From contig NZ_RKQQ01000001.1 of NCBI RefSeq assembly GCF_003814815.1, forward strand, positions 248,001-312,000: a DNA stretch of 64,000 nt. Reading direction: 5' to 3'. Source of the DNA: Salisediminibacterium halotolerans. GTDB taxonomy: Bacteria > Bacillota > Bacilli > Bacillales > Salisediminibacteriaceae. A model generated the notes under the pieces. The model did not search any database. It worked only from the letters and a program-made list of their open reading frames with translations, and had not been told where the DNA came from. A program made the position numbers and the translations under genes. Below are positions 1,220-59,347 of this stretch, in pieces; position 1 is the stretch's first letter; every line of letters begins with the position of its first letter.

Positions 1220-3800
1220 GATTTATCTCTCCAATAAGCCGTTTAATGTGGTGTTCGTAACCGAAATTTTCCTTGGCAAATTGCCTCGCCGCACATGTTG
1301 CGGACTGATAGGTTTTCTCATCTGCTATTAGCTCTTGTATTGCTGGTTTCACTTCTTCCGGCTTCGCATACACGGCCCCTGAACCGAATAGTTCTTTGTA
1401 CTTCGGATCTAATATGACCGGAACACCCGCGGCCATGGCTTCTAATACGGATCGCCCAAATGCTTCCACCCACTCCGAATGGGTATAATATACATACACA
1501 TCTATTTCTTGCAAAAACTCATGCGGCTTAACCGAACCAAATGGATAAACTATCCAATTACCAGGGATTGCACCGAGAATCTTTTCTGCTGCCGAAGCGC
1601 CGCCAAGGACACGGACCTGATAGGTTTCATCTTTCGGGTAAATCAAATTCATTAACTCCGCTGTTTCCGGCCACTTCACATATTGATCTCGAGAATGACG
1701 GCCGATTCGGACTTGATTGACATTTGGTTGATGAGCAGGCCGATGCCACTCTTCAACATTAATGATATTTACCCAATCATCTGCGGACAGCGGGATTTTG
1801 GTTATTTCTTCGCTGTGCTGCTCTGCTAAAATTTTTCTTACTTGCGGTCCAATCGGATGCCATATTCCGGAATGACCAAAGTATGAACGCAGATGCGCCA
1901 TGGTGTTTTGAAAATCGTACAGTCGATTCTCAGAACCGGTATAATCTCTCATCGGCGGCTGATTAATAATGACATACACATCTTCTGCGTATATTTCAGG
2001 AACATACCTTTGCCATTCCTGTAAAATTGGCGGGTGCCTCACAATAAGCTTGTCGCAAGTCACTTGTTCGCCATAAGTAACCACCTCAACATCTAAACCA
2101 TTGACTTGCTCACGCACTAACGGATTCCACTCTTCACGAGAATCCAGATCATAACGATAAAGCTGGACTAACCCTGTCTTCATGCCAAACGTTCGCTGGG
2201 CTTTAATTTCTTCGATGTTGCTCATATTTGTCCCGCCCAACAGCCGGAAATCCGAAGCAATAATGACATCAAAATGTCTGATGGCTTCTTTTTTACGTTC
2301 AGGCTTTAACGGTTCCGGGATCGGAAAAGGACGTTCAGTCATCGGAAACGAGTACTTCAAACTTGTCGCTTGATTATGAAAATGTCGATAGGATTGCACA
2401 TACTCCTTACGGATACCGTAAAAGTAACCTTGATACCCAAAGGAAGTACTGCCGGTTAACGAACGGCTGCTTTGACGGAGAAAGGAGTAAACGCCTGCTT
2501 TTAAATCCGCGACGGCCTCTTTTCCAAACACCTCTTTCAACCGCTGCTTAAATTCACCATCAGCTCCGAATCGAACGGAGTCCCAATAGCCTAAATGTTC
2601 TTGAACCGGTTTCTTGCGAAACATTAACGAAGACATATTCGGATAAATATAATAGCCTGCCTTTAATCTTCGCGTTACATGAAAGTCTTCCGTTACACGT
2701 ACTTGACTCGATGTATTTGCGATAACATCCGGGTTCTCTAGAAGGTGATTAACTTGATAAGCAATTTTTTCCGGATGCGTCCAATCATCAGCATCTTGGA
2801 CGGTAACAAACTCTCCTGAAGCTTCGTTCAGCCCTGTATTACGAGCTGCATAAGGACCGCTGTTACTAGCCAGCTTTTTGAGGCGAATTCTCGGGTCCGC
2901 TTCCATCCAAGCCCTTACTTCCTCAATAGTGCCGTCATCACTTTGATCATCAATGACAATGATTTCAAGGTTTCTCCATGTTTGCTTTACGATGCTTCGA
3001 AGACTGGTCCCGATCGTTTTTTCTGCATTATAAACCGGAACGAGAACGGTAACGAGCGGGCCGTCGTCAATATACGAAGATTGAGAGCTGTCTAATTGAT
3101 CGTAATAGCAGTCTGAAGCAATGTTCGTGTTTAAAAATACCGGTTCCTGACCGTTTGTTCTTAACAAAAGATTTAATAAGTTTATTTTTGTTTCGATTGA
3201 GTCTGTTAAGTTCATGCTCTCTAACAGATAATCGTTATGAGGCTCTTTTTTCATCGCATCAGTAATCAATGCATAAGCCCGTTTATGATCATGTAAACTG
3301 CGTAACAGCTCGGATTTCAGCAAATTCACATTTCTTTTCGACACATTAGGCTTTGGTTTGGTTTCTGCTAGTTCGAACCAGTCCATTGCTTTACGCTTTT
3401 CATTCAAACCATCTTGATTCGCATGCCACACAGCTAGTTCCCAAGAAGCCAGTCCTAACAAATAAGGATTATCCGACCAAGAAACTATCGATTTCAGTTC
3501 ATTGATCACTGCCGTTTCAAATCCGTGCTCATATAACTTTTTTTTCAATTGATTTATTTGTTTTTTTGCTTTTTGTTTCCGCTGGCGTTTACTGAAGACG
3601 TCACGAAAAGCTCTTTTCCCTTTGGCAATTTTAACGATTTGTCTTGTTAAGTGTTTAGCCTTCGCCGCTTTATCAAAAAGTAATCCGGGAAAACCGTTTT
3701 CAATTTCTGCGAAACTTACCTCAAGTTCACGAAGGTTTTTACGTTGCCGATCAATTTCTTCGTTTGCTGCTATGTTTAAATCAGTCTCGAATCGTTTCAT
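1203..3800 (-). CDS. bifunctional GT2-GT4 glycosyltransferase (paralogue 1)
   Basis: 865 residues in three parts. Residues ~1-245 are helical and repeat-like. At ~247-430 is a GT-A family 2 domain, with VTVLVPVYNA, a VIDDQSDDGT strand and a metal-binding DADDW at ~334. At ~510-860 is a GT-B family 4 domain, opening with a DVIIASDF Rossmann strand and carrying EAFGRSVLE (E-x7-E) at ~778-787. Such two-headed enzymes add two different sugars to a growing surface polysaccharide at the cytoplasmic side of the membrane. The gene overlaps both neighbours by 17-20 bases, consistent with coupled translation. It is a divergent paralogue of the upstream gene across its full length. Donor and acceptor sugars cannot be read from sequence. 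Confidence 0.85.
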   Translation of the reverse strand: MKRFETDLNIAANEEIDRQRKNLRELEVSFAEIENGFPGLLFDKAAKAKHLTRQIVKIAKGKRAFRDVFSKRQRKQKAKKQINQLKKKLYEHGFETAVINELKSIVSWSDNPYLLGLASWELAVWHANQDGLNEKRKAMDWFELAETKPKPNVSKRNVNLLKSELLRSLHDHKRAYALITDAMKKEPHNDYLLESMNLTDSIETKINLLNLLLRTNGQEPVFLNTNIASDCYYDQLDSSQSSYIDDGPLVTVLVPVYNAEKTIGTSLRSIVKQTWRNLEIIVIDDQSDDGTIEEVRAWMEADPRIRLKKLASNSGPYAARNTGLNEASGEFVTVQDADDWTHPEKIAYQVNHLLENPDVIANTSSQVRVTEDFHVTRRLKAGYYIYPNMSSLMFRKKPVQEHLGYWDSVRFGADGEFKQRLKEVFGKEAVADLKAGVYSFLRQSSRSLTGSTSFGYQGYFYGIRKEYVQSYRHFHNQATSLKYSFPMTERPFPIPEPLKPERKKEAIRHFDVIIASDFRLLGGTNMSNIEEIKAQRTFGMKTGLVQLYRYDLDSREEWNPLVREQVNGLDVEVVTYGEQVTCDKLIVRHPPILQEWQRYVPEIYAEDVYVIINQPPMRDYTGSENRLYDFQNTMAHLRSYFGHSGIWHPIGPQVRKILAEQHSEEITKIPLSADDWVNIINVEEWHRPAHQPNVNQVRIGRHSRDQYVKWPETAELMNLIYPKDETYQVRVLGGASAAEKILGAIPGNWIVYPFGSVKPHEFLQEIDVYVYYTHSEWVEAFGRSVLEAMAAGVPVILDPKYKELFGSGAVYAKPEEVKPAIQELIADEKTYQSATCAARQFAKENFGYEHHIKRLIGEINHDKRL

Positions 3801-11981: not shown

Positions 11982-12008
11982 AAACTGACAGATTTCTCTG
12001 TCAGTCTT
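11982..12008. terminator. hairpin with T-tract, distal copy
   Basis: Stem CTGACAGA/TCTGTCAG. Read leftward it is followed by seven Ts, so it is a proper intrinsic terminator for leftward transcription from the penicillin-binding protein gene. The same 27 bases recur at 12430-12456, on the other side of the inserted repeat. Confidence 0.7.
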
Positions 12009-12012
12009 AGAC

Positions 12013-12424
12013 TGTAGACAAACTATATTTTGATGTCAGCCATGAATCCACTACCCTCCGCTTGCCCCGGGCAAGGACTCAGCTAGTATTCGGCGGTCTA
12101 AGACCGCCGAATACGGATCTTCGTCTCTTGCTTTCCCGGAGGTGTCGGAGGAGTGGATGCATGGCTTCTTTTTTATGAATACACTCGATTCAAAAAAGAG
12201 GATGACCCAGCATCCCGGCTTTCTCCTGCGGGATAGCGAGACAGGCGAGACACTGCAGGGCATCAGCCCGAAGCGGCTCGGCGCTCGTCCGCGGACTAGT
12301 AAGACACGGCGAAGTCTTATTGAGCCGATGTCGCAGTGATACCTTCAGGTGAAAGAAGCCGGACGATGCGTAGTCATCCGTTCCTTTTAATATGACTTCG
12401 ATCGATGTCATGACTTTGTCAACA
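12013..12424 (-). mobile_element. structured terminator-associated repeat, copy 1 (longest)
   Basis: About 412 bp with imperfect terminal inverted repeats TGTAGACAAA (12013-12022) and TGTTGACAAA (complement of 12415-12424). The interior has a closing stem around CCACT/AGTGG, a CTTGCC-CGG-GGCAAG hairpin, and a perfect 13-bp stem at 12086-12098/12102-12114. Related copies lie near 29.5, 51.3 and 57.4 kb. Compared with copy 2 it carries an extra ~150-170 bp module. No transposase is encoded, so this is a non-autonomous element or a structured RNA. Identical 27-bp hairpins flank it. Confidence 0.7.
12196..12362. repeat. extra module nested in repeat copy 1
   Basis: Copies 2 and 3 read straight through at this point, whereas copy 1 carries about 150-170 bp here between GGATGAC and GGACGATGCG. 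It includes CATCCCG/CGGGATAG pairing and GCGAGACAGGCGAGAC. By memory this resembles a very common repeat type in Bacillaceae intergenic DNA, but this was not checked. Exact ends are uncertain by several bases. Confidence 0.45.
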
Positions 12425-12429
12425 CTCTG

Positions 12430-12456
12430 AAACTGACAGATTTCTCTGTCAGTCTT
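12430..12456. terminator. proximal duplicate of the hairpin, T-tract lost
   Basis: Identical over 27 bases to 11982-12008 and 13 bases past the stop of the penicillin-binding protein gene. Read leftward, the stem is followed only by TTTCAGAG and then the repeat, so the T-tract is missing here. Confidence 0.6.
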
Positions 12457-12468
12457 TCTTGTGACTCT

Positions 12469-14499
12469 TCACTCCATCTCCGCCCAAATTTCATTCGCCA
12501 AATCGACGGCATAGCCGCTGCCGCCGTGATCTTCTGCATTTTGCACCATCACCGTCATAATGTAGTCATTGTTACCGGCATCGGCGCTGACATACCAGCC
12601 GATCTGTTCGCCGTCTTCAGCGCTGTCCGATTTTAATTCCGCTGTTCCTGTTTTGCCGATCAGTTCGCGGTCGTGCCCGTTTTCATCGCGATAAGCGGTG
12701 CCGTCCTCAGCTTGCACGACACTCGCTAATGACTCTTTCACCGTCGAAGCGGTTGCTTCACTGATGACACTCTCATTCACTTCTCCTTCCTCTGTAAGGC
12801 CGGGAAGCTGCCAATCGCCGCCATTTGTAAAAAGCGAATACAGCGACGTCATATGAACCGGGGAAATCAAAATTTCACCTTGTCCGTACCCGGTATCAGC
12901 CAACAAAACATCGCGGTCGAGCTCGTCGCTGACAAGCTGTGATGTATACAGCGGATAATCCGTCGCCAAATTTTCTCCGAAACCGAAGTCTTCCGCCCAG
13001 GCCGTCATCGTCTCCTCGCCGTATTCACGCGCGAGCTGGGCAAAATAAATATTGTCCGACAGTTTCATCGCCGTATCCAGATCGATTTCAGTTTCCGAAT
13101 CATTGACGCGCCGCACTTCGTAATCGCCCCAGCCGGCATCTTCCGGCTGCCACGTCTCGCCTTCGATCGTAACGGCTTCATTTGCATCCAACAAGTCCTC
13201 TTCTAAGCCGATCGCCGCCGTCAGCGGTTTGAACACCGATCCGGGCGAGTACACGTTTTGAAACCGGTTTTCAAAGAGCAAATCTGTCTCTTCATACTCT
13301 TCCGCCTGTTCATCCGGAAGCCCCAAATACCGAAGCGACGAATCGTAAGAAGGCTGACTGACAAGCGTACGCAGTTCGCCTGTCGACTGCTCCATGACAA
13401 CGACAGCCGCTGAGTCTTCGCCGACCTTATCGGTGACCATCGTTTGCATCGCCGAATCAATCGTTAAATCGAAGTCCTCTCCGGCTTCTGCTTCTTCACT
13501 GCCGAGTTCTTCCCGGACTTCATCGTTTTCTGTCATAATCGACAGCGTCCCCCCCCGTTCACCGCGGAGATCTTCTTCGAAATGCGCTTCCAAACCGCTG
13601 CGGCCGATAGCAGATTCGGCGTCATAATAACCCTCTTCGTCTTCTTCGAGATCTTCTGCCGTCACATTCCCGATATAGCCGATCAAATGCGCAGCGTCAC
13701 GGCTGAGCGGATACTCCCTTCCCTCTGCAGACTCAAGCAAGACACCGTCAACCTCAAGCAGCTCATCTGTCCGTTCATCTTCCGCGCCGATCATTTGCAC
13801 AGGCGCAGCCCATTCCGGTTCATCCGGATACGCATTCGCTGCTTCCACTGCTCTCTCGTCATCGATATTCAAAATTTCGGCGACCTCTTCCGCACTTGCG
13901 TCCGTATCGTCCGTGCTGTCAGGCACAATACTGACTTGATACACTTCTCCGTTGATCGCAAGCGGATCGCCTTCGCTGCCGTAAATTTCGCCGCGTTCAG
14001 GCGACTCGGTCGCATACGAGACAGTATCCGTCACCGCTTCCATGCCGGGCATGAAATGATCCGGCTCCCATGCGATCCGCCAGGAAATCACCTCACCGTC
14101 TTCCGTTTCTTCTGTCTGCCGCTGCATATTGACCGCGAGTGTATACGTGATCTCGCCGACGATCGTATCCATCGCGACCTCCACGGGAATGTCAAATGAC
14201 TCCGTTTCTTCCGCATCAATCTCGTGTTCTTCAAAAAAGCCTTCATCAAACGACAGCTCTGTCATTTCGATCAAAAGCTCATCATAAACTTCCTCGTAAC
14301 GCTCGGCAAAATCCCATTCTGCACCATCAACCGTTTCTTGCGACGCTTCTGTCATCTGTTCATACATTTGCGCGCCGTCTTGAGCTTCCCAGCTGTCTAA
14401 ATACGCTTGCAACGCATCTTCAGGATGTTCCGGCTCCTCCGAAGAACAACCCGCCAACATAACTGCCGCTGCTAAAAACCACATGATTCTTTTTATCAT
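12469..14499 (-). CDS. MecA-type class B penicillin-binding protein (PBP3-like), lipoprotein
   Basis: 676 residues. A short signal ends in the lipobox LAGC, so the protein is anchored outside the membrane. Residues ~25-140 match the NTF2-like MecA_N domain, ~150-330 the PBP dimerisation region, and the rest a D,D-transpeptidase. Catalytic motifs are complete: SVFK with S421, SDN in KLSDNIYFAQ, and KTGT with K616. It cross-links peptidoglycan and corresponds in architecture and length to B. subtilis PbpC. The sequence is rich in Asp and Glu, as expected for an extracellular protein of a halophile. A good ribosome site (GGAGGGGG) precedes the ATG. It is a monocistronic leftward gene. Confidence 0.92.
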   Translation of the reverse strand: MIKRIMWFLAAAVMLAGCSSEEPEHPEDALQAYLDSWEAQDGAQMYEQMTEASQETVDGAEWDFAERYEEVYDELLIEMTELSFDEGFFEEHEIDAEETESFDIPVEVAMDTIVGEITYTLAVNMQRQTEETEDGEVISWRIAWEPDHFMPGMEAVTDTVSYATESPERGEIYGSEGDPLAINGEVYQVSIVPDSTDDTDASAEEVAEILNIDDERAVEAANAYPDEPEWAAPVQMIGAEDERTDELLEVDGVLLESAEGREYPLSRDAAHLIGYIGNVTAEDLEEDEEGYYDAESAIGRSGLEAHFEEDLRGERGGTLSIMTENDEVREELGSEEAEAGEDFDLTIDSAMQTMVTDKVGEDSAAVVVMEQSTGELRTLVSQPSYDSSLRYLGLPDEQAEEYEETDLLFENRFQNVYSPGSVFKPLTAAIGLEEDLLDANEAVTIEGETWQPEDAGWGDYEVRRVNDSETEIDLDTAMKLSDNIYFAQLAREYGEETMTAWAEDFGFGENLATDYPLYTSQLVSDELDRDVLLADTGYGQGEILISPVHMTSLYSLFTNGGDWQLPGLTEEGEVNESVISEATASTVKESLASVVQAEDGTAYRDENGHDRELIGKTGTAELKSDSAEDGEQIGWYVSADAGNNDYIMTVMVQNAEDHGGSGYAVDLANEIWAEME

Positions 14500-16826: not shown

Positions 16827-18170
16827 TTAATAATTCGGACGGATCACGTGGCCGTTGTAGTTGTTTGCCCAATAGCCGCTGCTCATATCGGCTACCGCGA
16901 CGCCCGTTGATGATTGCGCCCCGAGAAACGTGCCGTTCCCGAGATAAATCCCCGCGTGCCCATTCGTTTTGTACGTATCAAAAAAGACAATATCTCCGCG
17001 CCGCTTCTCACTTGATGAAACGCGTGTACCAGCAGAAGCTAACCCGTCTGTCGAAGCAGGCATATTCATGCCGATTGAACTGAAGGCCCAGCTGAGAAAC
17101 CCAGAACAATCGAAACGGCCGGCATTAATGTCAGACTGCGAGCGGCCGCCGCCGAAAACGTACGTGGAATTGCCGATGTATTCTTTGCCGTTGCTGATTA
17201 AGCTTTCCGCACCGCTTCCGCCGGAAGGAGCACTGCTGCCGGAAGACGAGGCATTGTTTGTGTTTGCATTGCTGCTTGGTTGATTGCTCGCCGATGCGTT
17301 ATTTCCGCTGTCTTCTGTATTTTCGCTGTCTTCTGAACCGCTCTCGTTTGAAGGTGCAACGTTTTCGTCAGATGCTGCTGAAGCAGCCTCTGCTTCCGCT
17401 TCTTGGCGTTCGCGTTCTTCTTCAATACGATTTAACAAATCGGCTTCTTCAGAAGCGAGCTCGTCATCCTCTGCGGCCAGTTCGGCAATTAAATCTTCTT
17501 GCTCGTCTTCATTGGCCGCTACATCATCTTTCATCTTTTCCGTTTGTTCTTTTTGCTCTTGGAGATAATCTGCCATCCCTTCAAGCTCCGTCATTTGTTC
17601 ATCGAGTTCAGCTAATGTTTCCTCATGTTTTTCTTGTTTCTTAGAGAGCTCGTCTTCGAGTGCTTTTAATTCATCAATAAATTCTTGATCCGCTTCCGCT
17701 ATTCGCGATACATTCGCGACTCGGCTGATAAAATCCGCAAAACCTTCAGCCCCTAAAATGACTTCTATGTAGCTGACATCGCTGCTGCCGTTTTGCTGAT
17801 AAGAACTTGCACGGCTTTTCAGCAAATTGAACCGCTCATCAATGTCCGCTTCTAACACATCAATTTCCTCTTCAATTTCAGTCACTTTTTCTTCGTTTGC
17901 AGCAATATTTTCTTCTGTATCGACGATCTTCGCTTCATTTTCCTCGATCGTCTCGTTCATTTCTGTCAGTTCTTCTTCCAGCTCTTCCTTCTCATCAATT
18001 AAGTCCGCCAGTTCTTGTTCCGCCTCGGACAATTCCGATTGCACTTCACTGCGTTCTTCATCTATTTGATTCTGCTCATTTTCAAGATTTTCCGTCGCTG
18101 TTGCTTCGTTATGCCCTCCGAATACTGCACTTATACCTAAGACCGTTGCTAAAATTAGTGCTTTCCTCAC
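16827..18170 (-). CDS. CwlO-like D,L-endopeptidase (coiled coil plus NlpC/P60)
   Basis: 447 residues from the GTG at 18170, which sits properly behind GGGGGATGAACTG. An ATG 5 codons upstream overlaps that ribosome site. A signal peptide is followed by a long coiled coil (~30-255) with heavy Glu content, a Ser/Asn linker, and an NlpC/P60 domain (C355 in FDCSGF, H405 in GHAGIY). This layout is that of CwlO, whose coiled coil lets the FtsEX complex activate it for cell elongation. A second gene at 57.5-59.2 kb is a close paralogue, with near-identical blocks such as SRASSYQQNGSS and the whole C-terminal domain. Confidence 0.9.
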   Translation of the reverse strand: MRKALILATVLGISAVFGGHNEATATENLENEQNQIDEERSEVQSELSEAEQELADLIDEKEELEEELTEMNETIEENEAKIVDTEENIAANEEKVTEIEEEIDVLEADIDERFNLLKSRASSYQQNGSSDVSYIEVILGAEGFADFISRVANVSRIAEADQEFIDELKALEDELSKKQEKHEETLAELDEQMTELEGMADYLQEQKEQTEKMKDDVAANEDEQEDLIAELAAEDDELASEEADLLNRIEEERERQEAEAEAASAASDENVAPSNESGSEDSENTEDSGNNASASNQPSSNANTNNASSSGSSAPSGGSGAESLISNGKEYIGNSTYVFGGGRSQSDINAGRFDCSGFLSWAFSSIGMNMPASTDGLASAGTRVSSSEKRRGDIVFFDTYKTNGHAGIYLGNGTFLGAQSSTGVAVADMSSGYWANNYNGHVIRPNY

Positions 18171-18270
18171 CAGTTCATCCCCCATATCGACACGTTTCGT
18201 TATTTTTTTCTCACAATGAACAGTCTATCAGTCCTATGTGACATGTATGTAATCATAAGATTACGATTAT

Positions 18271-24902: not shown

Positions 24903-25226
24903 TTAATCGTTCAAGTTGTCGTCATCGTCGTCATCGTTAAGCATGTCATCATCGTCGTCGTCATCGTCATCGTTGAGCATATCATCGTCGTCATCATCAT
25001 CGTCGTTCATCATATCGTCATCGTCATCATCATCGTCATCGTTAAGCATATCATCGTCGTCATCGTCGTCATTATAGCCGTCGTTGTCTGCATCGTTTTC
25101 AACATTGTTATTCATTCCGTCGTTGTTGTTCATTCCATCATTATTGTCAACATCGTCTCCGCACCCTGCTAACACACCGAGTGCAAGCACGCTTGACATG
25201 ACAGAAATTCCTAGTGATTTTTTCAT
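24903..25226 (-). CDS. lipoprotein with long aspartate runs
   Basis: 107 residues. A lipobox (VLAGC) follows a normal signal, so the mature protein is lipid-anchored outside the cell. The first mature part is Asn/Asp rich (DNNDGMNNN). From ~50 it is a tandem repeat of 6-9 aspartates separated by MLN or MMN. The DNA is a GTC/ATC trinucleotide-type repeat on the plus strand. Such a chain would be unfolded and extremely negative, able to bind Ca2+ or other cations or keep water and salt near the membrane (inference). The repeat number probably varies by slippage. The start follows AAGGAGG. Confidence 0.8.
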   Translation of the reverse strand: MKKSLGISVMSSVLALGVLAGCGDDVDNNDGMNNNDGMNNNVENDADNDGYNDDDDDDDMLNDDDDDDDDDMMNDDDDDDDDMLNDDDDDDDDDMLNDDDDDDNLND

Positions 25227-29354: not shown

Positions 29355-29383
29355 ACCGTCAGGCATAGCTCTGACGGTTTCAG
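29355..29383. terminator. distal copy of the duplicated hairpin with T-tract
   Basis: Stem ACCGTCAG/CTGACGGT. Leftward it is followed by TTTGTTTTTG, so it is a working terminator for leftward transcription. It differs at only about 4 of 29 positions from the hairpin at 29644-29672 on the other side of the repeat. Confidence 0.65.
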
Positions 29384-29385
29384 AG

Positions 29386-29636
29386 TGTTGACAAAGTCAT
29401 GACATCGATCGATGTCATATTAAAAGGAACGGATGACTACGCATCGTCCTTCTTTGAATCGAGTGTATTCATAATAAAGGAAGCCGTCTATCCACTCCTC
29501 CGACGCCTCCGGGAAAGCAAGAGACGAAGATCCGGATTCCGCGGACTCAGGCCGCCGAATACTAGCTGAGTCCTTGCCCGGGGCAAGCGGAGGTTAGTGG
29601 ATGCCTGGCTTACGTCAAAATAATAATTTGTCTACA
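29386..29636 (+). mobile_element. structured terminator-associated repeat, copy 2
   Basis: 251 bp with termini TGTTGACAAA (29386-29395) and TGTAGACAAA (complement of 29627-29636). It has the same interior order as copy 1 in opposite orientation: ATCGATCGATGTCAT, GGATGACTACGCATCGTCC, the CCACT/AGTGG closing stem, the imperfect central GGATTCCGCGG hairpin and CTTGCCCGGGGCAAG. It lacks the extra module of copy 1. Diverged copies of one hairpin flank it on both sides. No protein is encoded. Confidence 0.75.
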
Positions 29637-29676
29637 AGCTGAGACCGTCAGGCATAACCCTGACGGTCTCAGCTTG
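29637..29676 (-). terminator. proximal hairpin after the ABC ATPase gene
   Basis: Perfect 17-bp stem (AAGCTGAGACCGTCAGG and its complement) around CATAAC. It lies 8 bases past the leftward ABC ATPase stop. Leftward it runs into TTGTAGACAAA, the repeat end, with no T-tract. Confidence 0.7.
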
Positions 29677-29684
29677 TCATTTAT

Positions 29685-30767
29685 TTATGATTTAACCGGG
29701 AGATCTTCCGGAATGATATGCACGCGGTCAGGAAAACCCAGTCCTACCTTATCACCGCGCCGGTGAATCTTTGCACTGAGAGGGTTGAGCGCATCAATAT
29801 AGAGCGGTTCACCAAACAGATCTACGTGATAGCGGACACTGTTTCCATGATAAACAGCTTTTTTAACTTCTGCTTGATAAGGACTATCTTCATCCACGGT
29901 GATCATTTCCGGACGCAAGAGCACCGTCCCTTTTTTTCCCTTCCAATCTCCGCCGATATTTAACGGAAATGTCAGTTCAGGGCTTACATCTGATTGAAAC
30001 ACAATCCCATCTTCCTTGCCGGTAAAAGATCCTTCAATCAAATTGGCGTGCCCGACAAACTCAGCGACGAATTCATTTTCCGGATGCTGGTAGACGGCTG
30101 GAGGGGCATCGAGCTGTTGAACTTCTCCGTCTTTTAAAACGAGAACACGGTCGGAAATACTTAGCGCTTCCTCCTGATCATGGGTGACAAAAACGATTGT
30201 TAAATTCAATTCCTCTTTTAAACGCCGGATTTCATCGCGCATTATCAGACGAAGATTAGCATCCAAGTTTGAAAGGGGTTCATCAAGCAAAAGCACTTTC
30301 GGCTTTAATACAAGACAACGGGCGATCGCAACTCGTTGCTGCTGTCCGCCGCTCAATTCACTCGGCTTTCTCGCTTCATATCCGTCAAGCTGCACTTGTT
30401 TCAATGCGTCTTTAATTAAACTGTCCCGTTCTTCGGCGGGCACATCTTTTTTTAATTTCAGCCCGTAAGCGACATTGTCATATACACTCATGTGCGGAAA
30501 TAGGGCGTAGTTTTGAAATACCATCCCTGTTGTCCGTTTTTCCGGCGGAAGCTGATCGATGGTTTCTCCATCAAGGATCACCGCTCCTTCTGTCTGTTCG
30601 TGGAACCCTCCGATCACGCGTAAAAGCGTCGTTTTTCCGCTTCCGCTCGGGCCGATAAATGTAATCAACTCCCCTTCTTCGACATCCAGTGAAATATTTT
30701 TCAACACATGCTCTTCACCGAAAAACTTCTCTATCCCCTGCAAACGCAGAATTGCTTGCTCGCTCAA
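29685..30767 (-). CDS. ABC importer ATPase (iron/phosphonate/spermidine type)
   Basis: 360 residues starting at TTG 30767, eight bases behind AAGGAGG. Walker A GPSGSGKTT, signature LSGGQQQR, Walker B VLLLDEPLSNLD and switch HDQEEAL are intact, and a TOBE-like domain fills ~235-355. It belongs to the PotA/FbpC/PhnT group of importer ATPases. With the fused permease and binding protein just upstream it makes a complete import system. It is the last gene of the unit and is followed by a hairpin and repeat copy 2. Confidence 0.92.
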   Translation of the reverse strand: MSEQAILRLQGIEKFFGEEHVLKNISLDVEEGELITFIGPSGSGKTTLLRVIGGFHEQTEGAVILDGETIDQLPPEKRTTGMVFQNYALFPHMSVYDNVAYGLKLKKDVPAEERDSLIKDALKQVQLDGYEARKPSELSGGQQQRVAIARCLVLKPKVLLLDEPLSNLDANLRLIMRDEIRRLKEELNLTIVFVTHDQEEALSISDRVLVLKDGEVQQLDAPPAVYQHPENEFVAEFVGHANLIEGSFTGKEDGIVFQSDVSPELTFPLNIGGDWKGKKGTVLLRPEMITVDEDSPYQAEVKKAVYHGNSVRYHVDLFGEPLYIDALNPLSAKIHRRGDKVGLGFPDRVHIIPEDLPVKS

Positions 30768-51031: not shown

Positions 51032-51213
51032 CTTGATGACCTCCTTGTTTTCTTATATATTCACTTAACTTAACAGGAAACAGATGTCATTGTAAACGAC
51101 TGAACAAGAAAAAGGCGAAAAATTTTGTTTTTTTATCGAAAAGACCGATAACGCGGCCGTAAAAAAGACTCAGCCACGGTAAAAGCGGCCGTTATGGCGC
51201 CGGTTTTCTAGGC
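51032..51213. other. intergenic region before repeat copy 3
   Basis: No gene. It holds the leader of the methyltransferase gene and, at ~51146-51205, an imperfect inverted repeat (ATAACGCGGCCG against GCGGCCGTTAT) with an internal AAAAAAGACTCAGCC. The latter may be a degraded copy of the hairpin that lies on the other side of the repeat. Confidence 0.4.
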
Positions 51214-51435
51214 TGTCGACAAACGATAATTTTGACGCAAGCCATGAATCCACTACCCTCCGCTTGCCCCGGGCAAGGACTCAGCTAGTATTCGTCTCTT
51301 GCTTTCCCGGAGGCGCCGGAGGAGTGGATGCACAGCTTCCTTTCTTGTGAATATACTCGATTCAAAGAGGGACGATGCGTCGTCATCCGGTCTTTAAACG
51401 AGTTGACGTCTGATGATGCTTTTACTTTGTCTGCA
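51214..51435 (-). mobile_element. structured terminator-associated repeat, copy 3
   Basis: 222 bp, same orientation as copy 1. Ends: TGTCGACAAA (51214-51223) and the complement of TTTGTCTGCA (51426-51435). The closing stem and CTTGCCCCGGGCAAG are kept. The central hairpin is deleted, apparently between two TTCG tetranucleotides present in copy 1. The GACGATGCGTCGTCATCC segment is present and uninterrupted. Confidence 0.7.
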
Positions 51436-51439
51436 ATCT

Positions 51440-51466
51440 AAAAGACTGCCCGCAGGCAGTCTTTTT
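51440..51466 (-). terminator. terminator of the ribose operon
   Basis: Stem AAAGACTGCC/GGCAGTCTTT with a four-base loop, 17 bases past rbsB and directly next to repeat copy 3. Its core equals the hairpin next to copy 4. Confidence 0.8.
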
Positions 51467-51482
51467 ATATCCGTAGAATTGA

Positions 51483-52433
51483 TTACTCTGTTACCAATTC
51501 CAAATCAACGCCGACAAAATCCTCGACATCTTCACCGTTAAGGTAACTTACCGCTGCGTCCAGTGCTTCTTCTGCAATAAGACCCGGCTGCTGGGCAACT
51601 GTTCCGGAAAGACGTCCTTCTTCAACAGCATCGACCGCATCATCGGTCGCATCAAAACCGATAATTTCTAAGTCTTCGCGGTCAGCCCCTTCAGCGGCTT
51701 CGAGAGCTCCCAATGCCATCTCATCGTTATGCGCAAATACTCCTTCAATCCCTTCATTTCCTTGCAAAATATCTTCCATGACAGAAAGCCCTTCTGAGCG
51801 GTCAAAATCGCCTGCTTGAGAAGCTACAACATCCAGTTGATCGTCAGCAATATTGTTAAAGCCTTCACCGCGTTCCGTGGCCGCAGATGAACCAGGAATT
51901 CCTTCAATTTCGGCAACCTCTGCTCCTTCACCGACTAAGTCAACGAGAAGTTCCGCGGCCATTTCGCCGCCTTCAACGTTATCCGAAGCTACGTGTGTCA
52001 CTACCTCGCCGCCTTCTGAGCCGCGGTCGACGGTAACAACGGGAATGTCTTCAGCATTAGCCAATTCAATCGAACTGACAACCGCATCAGAATCTGTCGG
52101 GTTGATCATTAATAAATCAATATCTTGCTGCATCAAATCTTCCACATCATTGATCTGCGTCGCATCATCATCTTGGGCATCAGCTGTGATCAATTCCACC
52201 CCTAATTCATCCGCATAATCAGACGCCGCTTCTTCTAACGACACAAAGAATGGATTATTTAATGTTGATACAGAAAACCCAATGGTATATTCTTCGTCTC
52301 CATCAGCCTCTGCATTGTTATTTCCTTCGTTTCCGCCTCCGTTATTATTCTCCTCGACGGGCGACTCGGTTGAACAAGCAGCTAACAGCATACCTCCGGT
52401 TAACAAAACGGACAACGCTTGAATTTTTTTCAT
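51483..52433 (-). CDS. rbsB: ribose ABC transporter binding lipoprotein
   Basis: 316 residues with lipobox LLAACS, an Asn/Gly/Asp-rich linker (~25-45), then a type 1 sugar-binding fold: YTIGFSVSTLNNPFFVSLEE, INPTDSDAV, VTVDRG and HNDEMALGALEA. It captures ribose outside the membrane and delivers it to RbsAC. It is the last gene of rbsRKDACB, 19 bases after rbsC. More acidic than B. subtilis RbsB, as expected in a halophile. Confidence 0.95.
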   Translation of the reverse strand: MKKIQALSVLLTGGMLLAACSTESPVEENNNGGGNEGNNNAEADGDEEYTIGFSVSTLNNPFFVSLEEAASDYADELGVELITADAQDDDATQINDVEDLMQQDIDLLMINPTDSDAVVSSIELANAEDIPVVTVDRGSEGGEVVTHVASDNVEGGEMAAELLVDLVGEGAEVAEIEGIPGSSAATERGEGFNNIADDQLDVVASQAGDFDRSEGLSVMEDILQGNEGIEGVFAHNDEMALGALEAAEGADREDLEIIGFDATDDAVDAVEEGRLSGTVAQQPGLIAEEALDAAVSYLNGEDVEDFVGVDLELVTE

Positions 52434-52452
52434 GTTGTTTCTCCCCTTTTTC

Positions 52453-53391
52453 TTAAGATTTTTTTCGATCTACCATGACCGCGAATAAAATGACACTTCC
52501 TTTAACAACTTGCTGATAAAATGAGCTCACCCCCAACAAATTGAGACCATTATCAATAACTCCTATGATCAAGGCACCGATAAGCGTGCCGACGATCCAA
52601 CCTCTTCCGCCTGTAAGGCTCGTTCCTCCGAGCACAACAGCAGCGATCGCATCGAGTTCATACATTTGTCCGGCTGTCGGCTGCGCGGAGTTCAAACGTG
52701 AAGTTAAAATCATTCCGGCTGTCGCCGCTAAAAAACCGGTTAAGGAATAAACATAAATCTTGATTCGGTCAGCTTTAATCCCTGATAACAAAGCCGCTTC
52801 TTCATTACCTCCGACAGCATAAACGCGGCGGCCGAACGTCGTTTTCTTCAATATCAAATAGAGAATAACGAATGATAATATCATTGTGATCGCAGGCACA
52901 GGCACCCCTAAAATGTAACCCCGGCCGTACATTTCAAATGCAACAGAATCACCCAGACCGGTTACAGGACGTCCGTCAGTCAACACAAGCGTCAAACCGC
53001 GGTATATCGTCATCGTTGCCAACGTTGCAATAAACGGCGCTACTTTTCCTTTCGCGATAAACACCCCGTTTAACGCCCCTAGAACGGCACCTGCTAAAAG
53101 AGCAAGAAGCATCGCCAAAATCGGATCGACTCCCGCTGCCATTAAGGAGGCTCCGACTGCAGATGACAGTGCCAATGTTGAGCCGACCGATAAATCGATC
53201 CCGCCTGTTAAAATAACGTATGTCATGCCAAAAGCGATCAACGCATTAACAGACACTTGACGTAATAGGTTAAACAAATTTGTCGGCGAGAGAAAACTCG
53301 GATTCAAAATCGAAACGATCGCTACAATCAAAAGCAAGCCTATTAGCGGGCCGATCGTCCGCAGCACTGTCGACAATTGTTTATTTTTCAT
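52453..53391 (-). CDS. rbsC: ribose ABC transporter permease
   Basis: 312 residues from the ATG at 53391 (GGGAGGAGAGTCATTTC upstream); a start eight codons earlier would place the ribosome site inside the gene. Eight to ten membrane segments and the typical TYVILTGGIDLSVGS, GAVLGALNGVFIAKGKVAPFIATL and VVLGGTSLTGGRG blocks. It overlaps rbsA by 11 bases. It forms the channel for ribose import. Confidence 0.95.
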   Translation of the reverse strand: MKNKQLSTVLRTIGPLIGLLLIVAIVSILNPSFLSPTNLFNLLRQVSVNALIAFGMTYVILTGGIDLSVGSTLALSSAVGASLMAAGVDPILAMLLALLAGAVLGALNGVFIAKGKVAPFIATLATMTIYRGLTLVLTDGRPVTGLGDSVAFEMYGRGYILGVPVPAITMILSFVILYLILKKTTFGRRVYAVGGNEEAALLSGIKADRIKIYVYSLTGFLAATAGMILTSRLNSAQPTAGQMYELDAIAAVVLGGTSLTGGRGWIVGTLIGALIIGVIDNGLNLLGVSSFYQQVVKGSVILFAVMVDRKKS

Positions 53392-54877
53392 GAAATGACT
53401 CTCCTCCCGTGGCATAGTGCATGATTCGCTCCTCTGTCAGTTCAGACCGCTCCAACACGGTCTGCATCTTGCCTTCAAACATGACACCGACCCGTGAACT
53501 CATGCCGATCACTTCCGGAAGCTCCGATGAGATCATAATGATAGCCACACCGTGTTTGGCAAGCTCATTCATAATCGAATAAATTTCTTTTTTCGCGCCG
53601 ACATCCACGCCTCGCGTAGGTTCATCCAAAATCAATACACGCGGAGTTGTATAAAGCCACTTCGCGATCACCACTTTTTGCTGATTACCGCCGCTTAACG
53701 ACTTGGCGGACTGTCCTGGCCCCGATGTCACAATGCCGAGTTTCTTGACCAGCTCATCGTACAGCTCACGTTCTTTGTTCGCAGATATCCACGTCCGCTT
53801 TGAGATCTCGTTCAAATTTGTCATGTTTAAATTGTCTTGAATCGAAAAATGAACGACGAGTCCTTTTGACTTCCGGTCTTCAGAAACAAACCCGAACCCT
53901 TTTACGATCGAATCGTGCGGATGTTTTAAGTTGATTTCTTCCCCGTCAAGAAATACTGCGCCGCTGTCTTTTTTTCGATAACCGAACAGTGTTTCAACAA
54001 CCTCAGAGCGTCCGGCCCCCATCAGACCGGCGATACCGAAAATTTCTCCTTCACATACTGAAAACGAGACGTCTTCGAAAAGTCCTTTTTTCGCCAACTC
54101 TTTAACTGCGAGCTTTTCCGCTCCCGGCTGCAATTGATAATCGGGAAATTGATCACCTAAATCGCGCCCGACCATCATTTTAACGATCCCGTCGAAATCG
54201 GTCTCAGCGGTTTTTCGTGTGCCGATATACTCGCCATCGCGCAAAACTGTGATACGATCGCAAAGTGAAAAAATCTCCTCCATACGATGCGATATATACA
54301 CAAACGAAACACCTTCAGCTTGTAAATCACGAATAATCTTAAAAAGCGTCTCTATTTCACGCCCCGTCAGCGCAGCCGTCGGTTCATCCATAATAATTAA
54401 TTCCGCTTTTGTCTCCAGTGCTTTTGCGATTTCAATAATTTGCTGCTGCCCAACCGATAAGCTGCCTGCCCTCGTTGTCGGGCTGACGTTTAAGCCCAAT
54501 TTCCCCATGACTTCAGCCGTTTTCCGGTTCATGTCTTTAGTTTTCAGCCACGGAGAACGTCCTGCTGTTTCTTCTTTTCCGAGGTAGAAGTTTTCGGCAA
54601 CCGACAGCTCAGGCAAAATATTTAATTCTTGATGAATGACGGCAATCCCGTCACCTTCCGCTTCTTTCGGGTGACTGTATTCGATTTCCCTCTCCTTCAC
54701 GCGAATGGTACCAGCGTCGCTCTCATGAATTCCGGTCAAGATTTTTATTAACGTCGATTTCCCCGCACCGTTTTCACCCATAAGCGCATGAATTTCTCCT
54801 GACGCGACATGAAAATCAACACTTTTCAGCACTTTATTTGCGCCGAACGATTTATCAATTCCTCGCATTTCAATCAT
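53381..54877 (-). CDS. rbsA: ribose ABC transporter ATPase
   Basis: 498 residues with two ABC domains. The first has Walker A GENGAGKST, LSVGQQQIIEIAKAL and IIMDEPTAAL. The second has the degenerate GLMGAGRSE loop normal for this family, LSGGNQQKVVIAKWL and LILDEPTRGVD. It drives ribose uptake with RbsC and RbsB. The ribosome site is GGGGGGGTGATCAA. Gap to rbsD is 22 bases. Confidence 0.95.
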   Translation of the reverse strand: MIEMRGIDKSFGANKVLKSVDFHVASGEIHALMGENGAGKSTLIKILTGIHESDAGTIRVKEREIEYSHPKEAEGDGIAVIHQELNILPELSVAENFYLGKEETAGRSPWLKTKDMNRKTAEVMGKLGLNVSPTTRAGSLSVGQQQIIEIAKALETKAELIIMDEPTAALTGREIETLFKIIRDLQAEGVSFVYISHRMEEIFSLCDRITVLRDGEYIGTRKTAETDFDGIVKMMVGRDLGDQFPDYQLQPGAEKLAVKELAKKGLFEDVSFSVCEGEIFGIAGLMGAGRSEVVETLFGYRKKDSGAVFLDGEEINLKHPHDSIVKGFGFVSEDRKSKGLVVHFSIQDNLNMTNLNEISKRTWISANKERELYDELVKKLGIVTSGPGQSAKSLSGGNQQKVVIAKWLYTTPRVLILDEPTRGVDVGAKKEIYSIMNELAKHGVAIIMISSELPEVIGMSSRVGVMFEGKMQTVLERSELTEERIMHYATGGESFHEK

Positions 54878-54899
54878 TTGATCACCCCCCCTATTCGGC

Positions 54900-55295
54900 T
54901 TAGCCGAAAATGACCCCTGCCTGTAAAATCACATTTGCAAAAGGCGTATTCTCGCCAGTTCGAATCACCGCTTTGACGTTGGCACAATCTTTTTTCAACT
55001 GTTCATGCTTTACCCAAGTAACAGGCGGTTGATATGTTTCGGTAAAATGAAGATATAAACCTGGATTCGCCTCCTTCATCTCTTCGGCGGCAAGCAAATG
55101 CTCCACTTCCATTTCTGCCAGCACTACGTCCAAGACATCCGTAAACGAAGGGGTTCCCAGTTTCAAACTGAGGTCAATACATTTTACGCCGTCCGGGATC
55201 GGCAGACCGCAATCCGCCACAACGATTTGGTCCGTGTGACCAAGCTTTGCCAGCACTTCAGCAATATCACGATTCAAAATTCCATGCTTTTGCAT
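54900..55295 (-). CDS. rbsD: D-ribose pyranase
   Basis: 131 residues, full length for RbsD. MQKHGILNRDIAEVLAKLGHTDQIVVADCGLPIP includes the active-site histidine (H20) of the GHTD motif, and the end has TGENTPFANVILQAGV. It interconverts pyran and furan forms of ribose so that RbsK can use it. It starts 2 bases after rbsK ends. Confidence 0.95.
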   Translation of the reverse strand: MQKHGILNRDIAEVLAKLGHTDQIVVADCGLPIPDGVKCIDLSLKLGTPSFTDVLDVVLAEMEVEHLLAAEEMKEANPGLYLHFTETYQPPVTWVKHEQLKKDCANVKAVIRTGENTPFANVILQAGVIFG

Positions 55296-55297
55296 AC

Positions 55298-56182
55298 TCA
55301 GCCTTCCTCCTTCAACAGTTTTTCTACCGCTTCACGATCGGGCATCCCTTCTTGCGCACCGAAAACTCTTACTGAAAGCGATGCAGCAGCATTGGCAAAC
55401 TTAACAGCATCATACATTTTTTGCTTTTCAGCCAGAGCTACGGTCAAGGCCCCGTTAAATGTGTCTCCCGCCCCTGTTGTGTCGACAACGTCAGCCGCAA
55501 ACGCCGGAACAGTTATTTCCTGATCCGTTTGATAAAACAACGTGCCGCCCGCGCCTTTTGTAACGATCAATTTTCGCTCAAGCTCTTGAGTATCATCGCG
55601 CTGAAAAAGCTGCGCAAACTCCGTTTCATTCGGCGTGATCCAGGCGGCCTTCATCCAAGTTTGTTTGTCAAGCTCTGCTGCCGGGGCCGGGTTGACAATG
55701 ACCGGGACTCCCCACTCGGCACATTTATTAACTAAATAAGCAATCGTATCCAGCGGGATTTCCATTTGGACGAGTACGGCGTCGCTCATTTTGAGACGCT
55801 CCTCGTTGCGGTCAATACTCCGGCGGTCGACTGTGCTGTTTGCCCCGGGTGTGACGATAATCCGGTTATCTCCGCCGGAAAGCAGGATCGTCGCAACGCC
55901 GGTCGAAACATCTGTAACCGGTTCCACACCATCCAAAAAAAGAGATTCCTTAGCTAAAGTATCCAGCAACGTCTTTCCAAATACATCGTTGCCGACCGCC
56001 CCAATTAAAGCTGTATCCGCTCCGAGTCTTGCGGCTGCGACCGCTTGATTGGCTCCCTTCCCGCCGGAAAATGTCGCAAATGTTCCGCCAATCAGCGTTT
56101 CGCCTTGGTCTGGAATCCGTTCTGTTTTGGTGACCATATCCAAATTAATGCTTCCTACAACCGTTACTTTAGGCCGTCTCAT
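55298..56182 (-). CDS. rbsK: ribokinase
   Basis: 294 residues, PfkB family. The N-terminus has VVGSINLDMVTKTERIPDQGET and the sugar-binding GGKGANQAVAAARLG. The C-terminal DTTGAGDTFNGAL carries the catalytic Asp and anion hole. It phosphorylates ribose to ribose-5-phosphate in the cytoplasm. Order rbsR-K-D-A-C-B matches B. subtilis. Gap to rbsR is 14 bases. Confidence 0.95.
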   Translation of the reverse strand: MRRPKVTVVGSINLDMVTKTERIPDQGETLIGGTFATFSGGKGANQAVAAARLGADTALIGAVGNDVFGKTLLDTLAKESLFLDGVEPVTDVSTGVATILLSGGDNRIIVTPGANSTVDRRSIDRNEERLKMSDAVLVQMEIPLDTIAYLVNKCAEWGVPVIVNPAPAAELDKQTWMKAAWITPNETEFAQLFQRDDTQELERKLIVTKGAGGTLFYQTDQEITVPAFAADVVDTTGAGDTFNGALTVALAEKQKMYDAVKFANAAASLSVRVFGAQEGMPDREAVEKLLKEEG

Positions 56183-56196
56183 CTCTTTTCTCCTCC

Positions 56197-57165
56197 TTAA
56201 GTCGTCTCTCTGATAATCAACGAAACCGGAAAAATATGCTCGCAGCTCTCACTCTCACCGTGCTCAATCTGCTGGATTAAAAGCTGCGCCGCTTTCTCGC
56301 CCATTTGATAGATCGATTGCTGCACGGTAGTTAACGAAGGGACAAGCATATTACAGAGCGGGATACCGTCAAAACCGATCACTTTCACGTCTCCCGGAAC
56401 GCTTCTCCCCGATTGCGCCAAAGCTTGCATCGCGCCGGCTGCGGTGACATCACTGGCTGCAAAGATCCCGTCAATATCGGGGTGATCGGCCAGCAGCTTC
56501 ATTGTTTCTTTTTCTGCCTGTTTAATCGAGAAGTTTGTTTGAACAACCACGCTTCGAAGTCCTTTTTCCTCAATCACTTCTTCAAACCCGGCCGCTCGAT
56601 CGTCTGCCGGGCGAACGCCGGCCGGGCCTTTTAAATGAGCGATAAATGAACAGCCGCGTTCGGCCAAGTGAATTGTTGCCTGCCGGGCGCCGTTTTTATT
56701 GTCTGACGCAACGGTCGGAATATGTTTGCCGATTACCCGGTCAAGCGCAACAATCGGCATATCCCATTGCGCATAATCACTCGCTGATTGACTGCTCGCT
56801 GTTAAAATAATCCCGTCAACATATTTTTGCTTCAGTGCGTCAAAATAACGTTTTTCTTTTGCTTCTTCTTCATCCGTATTACAAAATACCACTGTATACC
56901 CCGACTCAAGAGCAACATCTTCCACTGCCCGGGCCAATTCAGGGAAAAACGGGTTTGTGATATCCGGCATGAATAACCCGATCATACCGGATGTTTTATG
57001 ATAAAGTGATCGCGCGACGGAATTCGGCTGATAATTCAATTTCTCGATCGCGTCGAGCACTCGCCGGCGCGCCTCTGCACTTGCATACCCTCTGTCATTC
57101 AATACTCTTGATACCGTCGCCACAGAAACCTCTGCGTATTTAGCTACGTCTTTAATCGTTGTCAT
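56197..57165 (-). CDS. rbsR: LacI-family ribose repressor
   Basis: 322 residues from the ATG at 57165, behind GGAGGACTTTTT; an upstream extension crosses the operator and promoter. The LacI helix-turn-helix (TIKDVAKYAEVSVATVSRVLN) and hinge are followed by a ribose-sensing core (MIGLFMPDITNPFFPELARA, GFDGIPLCNMLVPSLTTVQQ). It should bind the palindrome 17-30 bases upstream of its own start, repressing the whole operon in the absence of ribose. Confidence 0.93.
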   Translation of the reverse strand: MTTIKDVAKYAEVSVATVSRVLNDRGYASAEARRRVLDAIEKLNYQPNSVARSLYHKTSGMIGLFMPDITNPFFPELARAVEDVALESGYTVVFCNTDEEEAKEKRYFDALKQKYVDGIILTASSQSASDYAQWDMPIVALDRVIGKHIPTVASDNKNGARQATIHLAERGCSFIAHLKGPAGVRPADDRAAGFEEVIEEKGLRSVVVQTNFSIKQAEKETMKLLADHPDIDGIFAASDVTAAGAMQALAQSGRSVPGDVKVIGFDGIPLCNMLVPSLTTVQQSIYQMGEKAAQLLIQQIEHGESESCEHIFPVSLIIRETT

Positions 57166-57181
57166 AAAAAGTCCTCCGATC

Positions 57182-57195
57182 TGTAACCGGTTACA
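57182..57195. promoter_or_regulatory. RbsR operator
   Basis: TGTAACCGGTTACA is a perfect 14-base palindrome of LacI-family type with central CG. It sits at the start point of the rbs promoter. Confidence 0.75.
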
Positions 57196-57198
57196 CAC

Positions 57199-57289: not shown

Positions 57290-57503
57290 TGGTTCATCCT
57301 CCCAGTTTCAAACAGCGCAGTTTGAATATTATTGTGCAAAGTAAGAAAGCCGCGCATCCGCTTCTTCCGACGCCTCCGGGAAAGCAAGAGACGAAGATCC
57401 GGATTCGGCGGCCTGAGGCCGCCGAATCCTAGCTGAGTCCTTGCCCGGGGCAAGCGGAGGTTAGCGGCTGCGTGGCTTACGTCAAAATAATTGTTCATCT
57501 ACA
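57290..57503 (+). mobile_element. structured terminator-associated repeat, copy 4 (5' degraded)
   Basis: Same orientation as copy 2. Clear homology runs from TTTGAAT (~57321) to CATCTACA (57496-57503); the 5' end is truncated or diverged. The central hairpin is perfect: 13-bp arms at 57401-57413 and 57417-57429. The closing stem is CCGCT/AGCGG in place of CCACT/AGTGG, a compensated change. Confidence 0.7.
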
Positions 57504-57504
57504 A

Positions 57505-57536
57505 CTTAAAAGACTGCCCGCAGGCAGTCTTTTAAG
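57505..57536 (-). terminator. terminator of the second CwlO-like gene
   Basis: Stem CTTAAAAGACTGCC/GGCAGTCTTTTAAG, 17 bases past the stop, directly next to repeat copy 4. The core is identical to the hairpin beside copy 3. Confidence 0.8.
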
Positions 57537-59239: not shown

Positions 59240-59347
59240 ACAACTCATCTCCTAATTTATGTAATCCCGCAAATAATCTCATTTTTAACCATAATTTCTC
59301 ACATTGCCCACCTTAACAGCCGCACATCACAGCAATGTAATAATAAG

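Follow-up and report, generated by a model that had tools for sequence, protein, structure and literature searches.

Introduction

The insertion sequences that come closest to the elements described here use hairpins as targets. IS1272 and TnSha1, members of the IS1182 family from staphylococci, target hairpins, often those of terminators, without sequence preference, and IS1272 replaces its hairpin (PMC5678879, PMC4923244). Duplication of the hairpin by insertion at its 5´ feet was drawn by Wan et al. 2017 as hypothetical, pathway b of their model (PMC5678879). For other members of the IS1182 family, palindromes are named as targets (Siguier et al. 2015, cited without details in PMC5678879 and PMC4923244). 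For IS1630, an IS30-family element of Mycoplasma fermentans, the title of Calcutt 1999 (cited in PMC3317919) reports targeting and duplication of inverted repeats of variable length. Hairpin targeting by IS1182 elements is already known, and duplication of inverted repeats has been reported for one IS30 element. No description was found in the open-access literature of IS1182 elements that form a clade across Firmicutes and duplicate terminators as a whole, or of a MITE family that depends on them; individual members may be catalogued in ISfinder.

The clade described here resembles IS1272 in having an IS1182-family DDE transposase and a hairpin target, and it shares family and type of target with the palindrome-targeting members as far as the citing papers characterise these. 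It differs from IS1272 in the fate of the hairpin, which IS1272 deletes without duplication and which is here duplicated as a whole, and in the length of the transposase (446–480 aa compared with about 548 aa in IS1272); the element ends also differ. The duplication is similar to the one named in the title on IS1630, but that element has a transposase of another family (IS30), which was not found in this genome.

The repeat family in the window and in the genome

The window is the whole stretch of DNA that was analysed, 64 kb in length (G000:C1:248001-312000), and belongs to a 2.84-Mb genome. In a preliminary description it had been reported to contain a four-copy family of structured repeats, present in both orientations, each adjoining the terminator of a leftward gene and with no transposase nearby. 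All four repeats are indeed present, copies 1 and 3 on the plus strand and copies 2 and 4 on the minus strand, and for each of them a leftward gene and its terminator are located directly to the right. As a family size, four was a large undercount, since searches that used first copy 1 and afterwards the terminal motif revealed at least 90 distinct copies in the genome, a lower bound for which copy-1 matches and terminal-motif places were merged by coordinates. The features of the copies in the window are the following:

11982–12008, plus strand: copy 1, terminator hairpin on the left side (AAACTGACAGATTTCTCTGTCAGTCTT), identical to 12430–12456
12009–12429, plus strand: copy 1, full-length MITE (AGACTGTAGACAAA...TTTGTCAACACTCTG), reference copy of the family
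12056–12150, plus strand: copy 1, module A, folding into a long imperfect hairpin (CTTGCCCCGGGCAAG ... CTTGCTTTCCCGGAGG); homologue of the module that recurs across the order (alignment A3, model R1)
12223–12299, minus strand: copy 1, second module-like segment in opposite orientation, resembling the modules of other genera (matches of query 214–286; alignment A2)
12430–12456, plus strand: copy 1, the same terminator hairpin on the right side, downstream of the leftward gene 12469–14499
29355–29378, plus strand: copy 2, terminator hairpin on the left side (ACCGTCAGGCATAGCTCTGACGGT)
29381–29641, minus strand: copy 2, internally deleted MITE of ~260 bp
29644–29667, plus strand: copy 2, right hairpin copy with two differences from the left one, downstream of the leftward gene 29685–30767
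51210–51439, plus strand: copy 3, deleted MITE with a terminator hairpin at the right only
51440–51465, plus strand: terminator right of copy 3 (AAAAGACTGCCCGCAGGCAGTCTTTT)
57345–57507, minus strand: copy 4, MITE remnant, left end lost
57508–57533, plus strand: terminator right of copy 4, same sequence as that right of copy 3

Copies 2–4 are internally deleted forms of the ~420-bp element, and the second module-like segment of copy 1 is missing from the 250-bp variants such as copy 2. The termini that the four copies had been said to share are exact (TGTNGACAAA/TTTGTCNACA) on either side in copies 1 and 2 and on the left in copy 3, whereas the right end of copy 3 (TTTGTCTGCA) and that of copy 4 are degenerate and the left end of copy 4 is lost. 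The identical terminators at 51440–51465 and 57508–57533 bracket an operon (51483–57198) that is ribose-transport-like by gene order and lengths only; recombination between copies 3 and 4 or a composite insertion may have generated this arrangement. The window also contains a small tandemly repetitive ORF on the minus strand (24903–25226, repeat family D3), which is apparently Asp-rich, and two paralogous ORFs (16827–18185 and 57554–59248) that share their C-terminal part (repeats D1 and D2) and resemble each other in the DNA upstream (D9).

Throughout the genome the copies are mostly 360–425 bp long, with forms of ~420 bp and ~363 bp being the commonest and 250-bp as well as longer variants occurring in addition, and they are spread at a density of about one per 30 kb. 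The termini (CAGASTGTNGACAAA) are terminal inverted repeats (TIR) of 14–15 bp with the conserved end sequence AGASTGTNGACAAA, which is preceded by a C in many copies. None of the ORFs of at least 100 aa in the window overlaps a copy, and 420 bp are too short for a transposase gene. The elements are thus short, present in many copies and bounded by TIR, they contain no transposase gene, they are flanked by a target-site duplication and an autonomous element has the same ends; the family almost certainly represents a non-autonomous transposon (MITE) with a partner of the IS1182 family. Bcr1, BOX, RUP, Correia and other bacterial MITEs are likewise short and present in many copies, with terminal repeats and without coding capacity. 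As far as general knowledge of these families goes, their duplication is short and fixed, whereas here it comprises a whole hairpin and its length depends on the site.

Several contigs end in or near element copies (C2:1-170, C2:549299-549417, C3:1-152 and C5:1-318), so the element probably breaks the assembly. A second, nested MITE of ~265 bp was observed at L057:571-835, L084 and L096, and also at L055, L066, L071 and L097. It has the ends GAGGCTGCTGAAAAAGT and a duplication of 9–10 bp (CTTGCTTTC), carries the GC-rich module described below, and its insertion point in the host element is apparently identical between copies.

Terminator hairpins on both sides of the element

The same terminator hairpin is located on both sides of nearly every copy, and the sequence of this hairpin differs from locus to locus. 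In the window this applies to copies 1 and 2, where it had previously been missed; the decayed copies 3 and 4 have kept the hairpin on one side only. For the 72 copies with both ends, to which the test was limited, matching flanks (score of at least 14) were found in 66 cases, compared with none of 1,424 shuffled, that is mismatched, flank pairs. The duplicated piece at MITE copies is 17–40 bp long with a median of 25 bp.

A gene 3´ end adjoins 28 of the 30 full copies, which strongly confirms the proposed non-random placement beside terminators, and the distance is 16–54 bp for 36 of 38 such ends. We read its cause as target choice by the transposase rather than as a function of the repeat at terminators. 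With 25 cases versus 13, the element shows no convincing preference for one direction with respect to the terminator.

Close downstream of pheT, no more than a single terminator hairpin was seen in nine relatives, whereas here two identical hairpins surround the element. This comparison suggests one hairpin before the insertion and two after it, and is only suggestive because terminators differ between species. A search by DNA for an empty site corresponding to window copy 1 gave no match in two congeners, where the gene is not conserved. Judged from the flanking sequences, the whole hairpin is very probably duplicated at insertion.

The IS1182-family partner and its relatives

That no transposase is near the repeats holds true locally, but an autonomous partner is present elsewhere in the genome (L049, G000:C2:366166-367901). 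Its ends (AGAGTGTCGACAAA/TTTGTCTACAGTCT) are 1,736 bp apart, have a gene for 480 aa between them and are flanked by a perfect 27-bp hairpin duplication. The transposase scores 451 bits against NF033551 (IS1182 family, cut-off 270) and contains the Pfam domains DDE_Tnp_1 and DDE_Tnp_1_6; D154, D281 and E408 are invariant in its clade. A Foldseek search with a transposase model of moderate quality had its best matches in Tn5 transposase, and a sequence search for a solved homologue found none. Only one autonomous copy was found in the genome. MITE and partner have only the ~15-bp ends in common, and the interior of the MITE has no BLAST match in the IS. We infer that the partner moves the MITE in trans because the ends are shared and the target behaviour is identical, the rest of the MITE not being shared with the IS. 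Both ends of the autonomous IS elements fold into strong hairpins (-20 to -32 kcal/mol), partly formed by the terminal repeat and followed, reading inward, by T-rich stretches in the manner of intrinsic terminators (L049:1667-1740 and 3328-3402; L166, L175, L183, L185). These hairpins would shield the transposase gene from outside transcription.

IS1182 transposases are encoded in 57 of 150 genomes of the order. When 30 IS1182 loci were examined, hairpin duplications were found with short transposases and TGTNGA(C/G)AAA ends and with none of the others. The 12 short transposases form one clade in a tree of 30 rows (support 94/98), and the other 18 rows are without such a duplication. Perfect duplications flank ten members of the clade; of the remaining two, L115 is interrupted by the end of a contig, and the hairpins to the left and right of L118 differ from each other. 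Near-identical IS copies are present in G103 (nine) and G045 (eight), with further copies in G157 and G079, and in these four genomes all 19 assessable IS copies are flanked by perfect duplications of 17–41 bp, which vary from locus to locus. Scanning named genomes extended these findings to Bacillus, Sporosarcina, Lysinibacillus, Enterococcus, Tetragenococcus, Lachnospiraceae and others.

The boundaries of the duplication were analysed in 74 IS elements that have CAG...CTG as their end pair, most of them in named Firmicutes genomes; L226 is a false pairing. At 65 of the 74 the element ends directly adjoin an exact duplication of 17–42 bp, and in 64 of the 65 its deviation from symmetry about the hairpin dyad is at most 1 nt. 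The outermost bases of the duplication pair with each other in 53 and are A...T in 50 of the exact cases. Most of the nine other elements have the same hairpin on both sides with point changes or a small offset. At loci L118, L207 and L245 the two sides do not carry matching hairpins. Complementarity extends at least 1 bp outside the duplication at about two thirds of the sites, so that the cut need not be at the exact stem base.

Folding and the internal module

The 420-bp sequence folds far beyond chance, with z = -9.4 as DNA and -8.9 as RNA and with none of 100 shuffles as good; the repetition as such, with its 90 or more distinct copies, also exceeds chance. Selection for structure had originally been suggested from compensated base pairs among the copies. 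In 57 copies these changes are weak, with a double change in 4 of 78 pairs and 10 of the 14 such cells in one column pair, and the copies of this genome show next to no covariation (covariation term -0.13; score 0.034 versus 0.030 in shuffles). Since this is hardly above background, the original evidence for structural selection fails; support for structure comes instead from an alignment across genera of a ~90-nt module.

This GC-rich module is common to loci from many genera (for example window 12056–12150, L049:3165-3257(-), L109:1291-1384 and L035:1494-1583). For 18 sequences the covariation score is 0.214 compared with 0.091 +/- 0.014 in shuffles, a difference that has to be tempered by the relatedness of the sequences and by the choice of the inner-stem pairs through reading the sequences; none of 500 shuffles reaches 0.214 and slid controls amount to at most 0.106. 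RNAalifold on the MAFFT alignment returned the outer stem only, and the named inner stem was counted separately. Of 120 genomes of the order, 91 contain matches to a model of the module, often at 36 or more places per genome, and the sites of the module include MITEs with quite different ends, UTRs of some IS elements and the nested second MITE. The module is absent from Rfam; an Rfam search of the window gave no matches, and that of the element loci at E up to 1 gave nothing except sub-threshold tsr24. The resemblance to this S. aureus family concerns L040, L044 and L109 (22–25 bits, gathering score 50), and tsr24 may be a relative of such a MITE. Bhal-1 of Bacillus halodurans, a 74-bp intergenic structured stem-loop repeat (Petrillo 2008, PMC2267715), is possibly the same module, a likeness drawn from its description.

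The module might shield its carrier from read-through or might serve as structured DNA in transposition. Tentatively, and with rather low probability, it may be an independent structured element, RNA or single-stranded DNA, that rides on unrelated IS elements and MITEs across the order and is kept for its own spread or because it shields its carriers from transcription. If so, the terminator-duplicating transposon would be no more than one carrier among several.

The very stable fold, the covariation of the module across genera and the position of the copies behind genes would also suit a structured RNA or regulatory element that is kept at terminators for its fold, for example as a termination or mRNA-stability device. 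We consider this improbable, since it does not account for the transposon ends, the hairpin duplication at each site and the partner IS with the same ends, and since the module is also located inside other MITEs away from terminators and covariation within the genome is almost absent.

Proposed mechanism of insertion

The family with its copy number, the ends common to it and an intact IS1182-type IS, and the dyad-symmetric, site-specific hairpin duplication can be read from the DNA itself. It is highly probable that a terminator-targeting IS1182 clade moves the MITE family in trans and duplicates the whole target hairpin. The DDE transposase would bind the element ends (CAGASTGTNGACAAA) and recognise its target through dyad symmetry; normally this would be the hairpin of a rho-independent terminator whose stem base is formed by A...T. 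Strand transfer would link each 3´ end of the element to one strand of the target, at the symmetrically placed 5´ feet of the stem, and gap repair would then duplicate the entire hairpin, giving 17–42 bp depending on the site. Because the duplications vary in length and yet are symmetric about the dyad, the stagger appears to be set by the secondary structure of the target. The target hairpin would be extruded as a cruciform, which is the simplest arrangement since both feet would then meet side by side at the junction regardless of stem length. From the pattern of the duplications such extrusion is the likely means of targeting; it is also possible that the transposase reads the duplex dyad with a flexible reach.

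Two hairpins per site would likewise result if the element inserted beside an existing hairpin that was then copied across by gene conversion or replication slippage. Recent, near-identical IS copies within one genome are all already perfectly duplicated, however, and the duplications directly adjoin the element ends and have boundaries placed symmetrically around the dyad, which makes such a two-step origin very improbable. Even less credible is a replacement as in IS1272, in which the element would remove its hairpin and the flanking hairpins would be of other origin: IS1272 has a transposase of the same family and the same kind of target (PMC5678879, PMC4923244), but the target hairpin is present twice, exactly and flush with the ends, at the great majority of the IS sites (65/74). 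An equally remote candidate for the mobiliser is an IS30-family transposase of the IS1630 type, as suggested by the inverted-repeat duplication in the title of Calcutt 1999 and by duplicated junctions of 16–26 bp (PMC3317919); against it stands the IS1182 element with matching ends in the genome. A search of the genome for an IS30 transposase found no match, while control genomes gave matches, and this mobiliser was rejected. Group IIC introns also occur after terminators, and were dismissed because the flanks are duplicated and Rfam matched nothing in the window and only tsr24, below threshold, in the element loci.

Implications

In known cases of DDE transposition it is generally the transpososome that fixes how far apart the two strand-transfer sites lie. 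In the elements described here the spacing follows the target hairpin (17–42 bp) and is symmetric about its dyad, and the structure-dependent target model drawn for IS1272 becomes directly testable with ready natural sites. The doubled terminators and repeat-broken contigs of Bacillales genomes receive an explanation. For the host, a complete hairpin stays next to the upstream gene, so that an insertion should be nearly neutral, which would explain a density of about one copy per 30 kb; copies would accumulate since they probably do little harm. This suggests a low-cost route to high copy number, in which copying the stop signal should leave the upstream gene properly ended.
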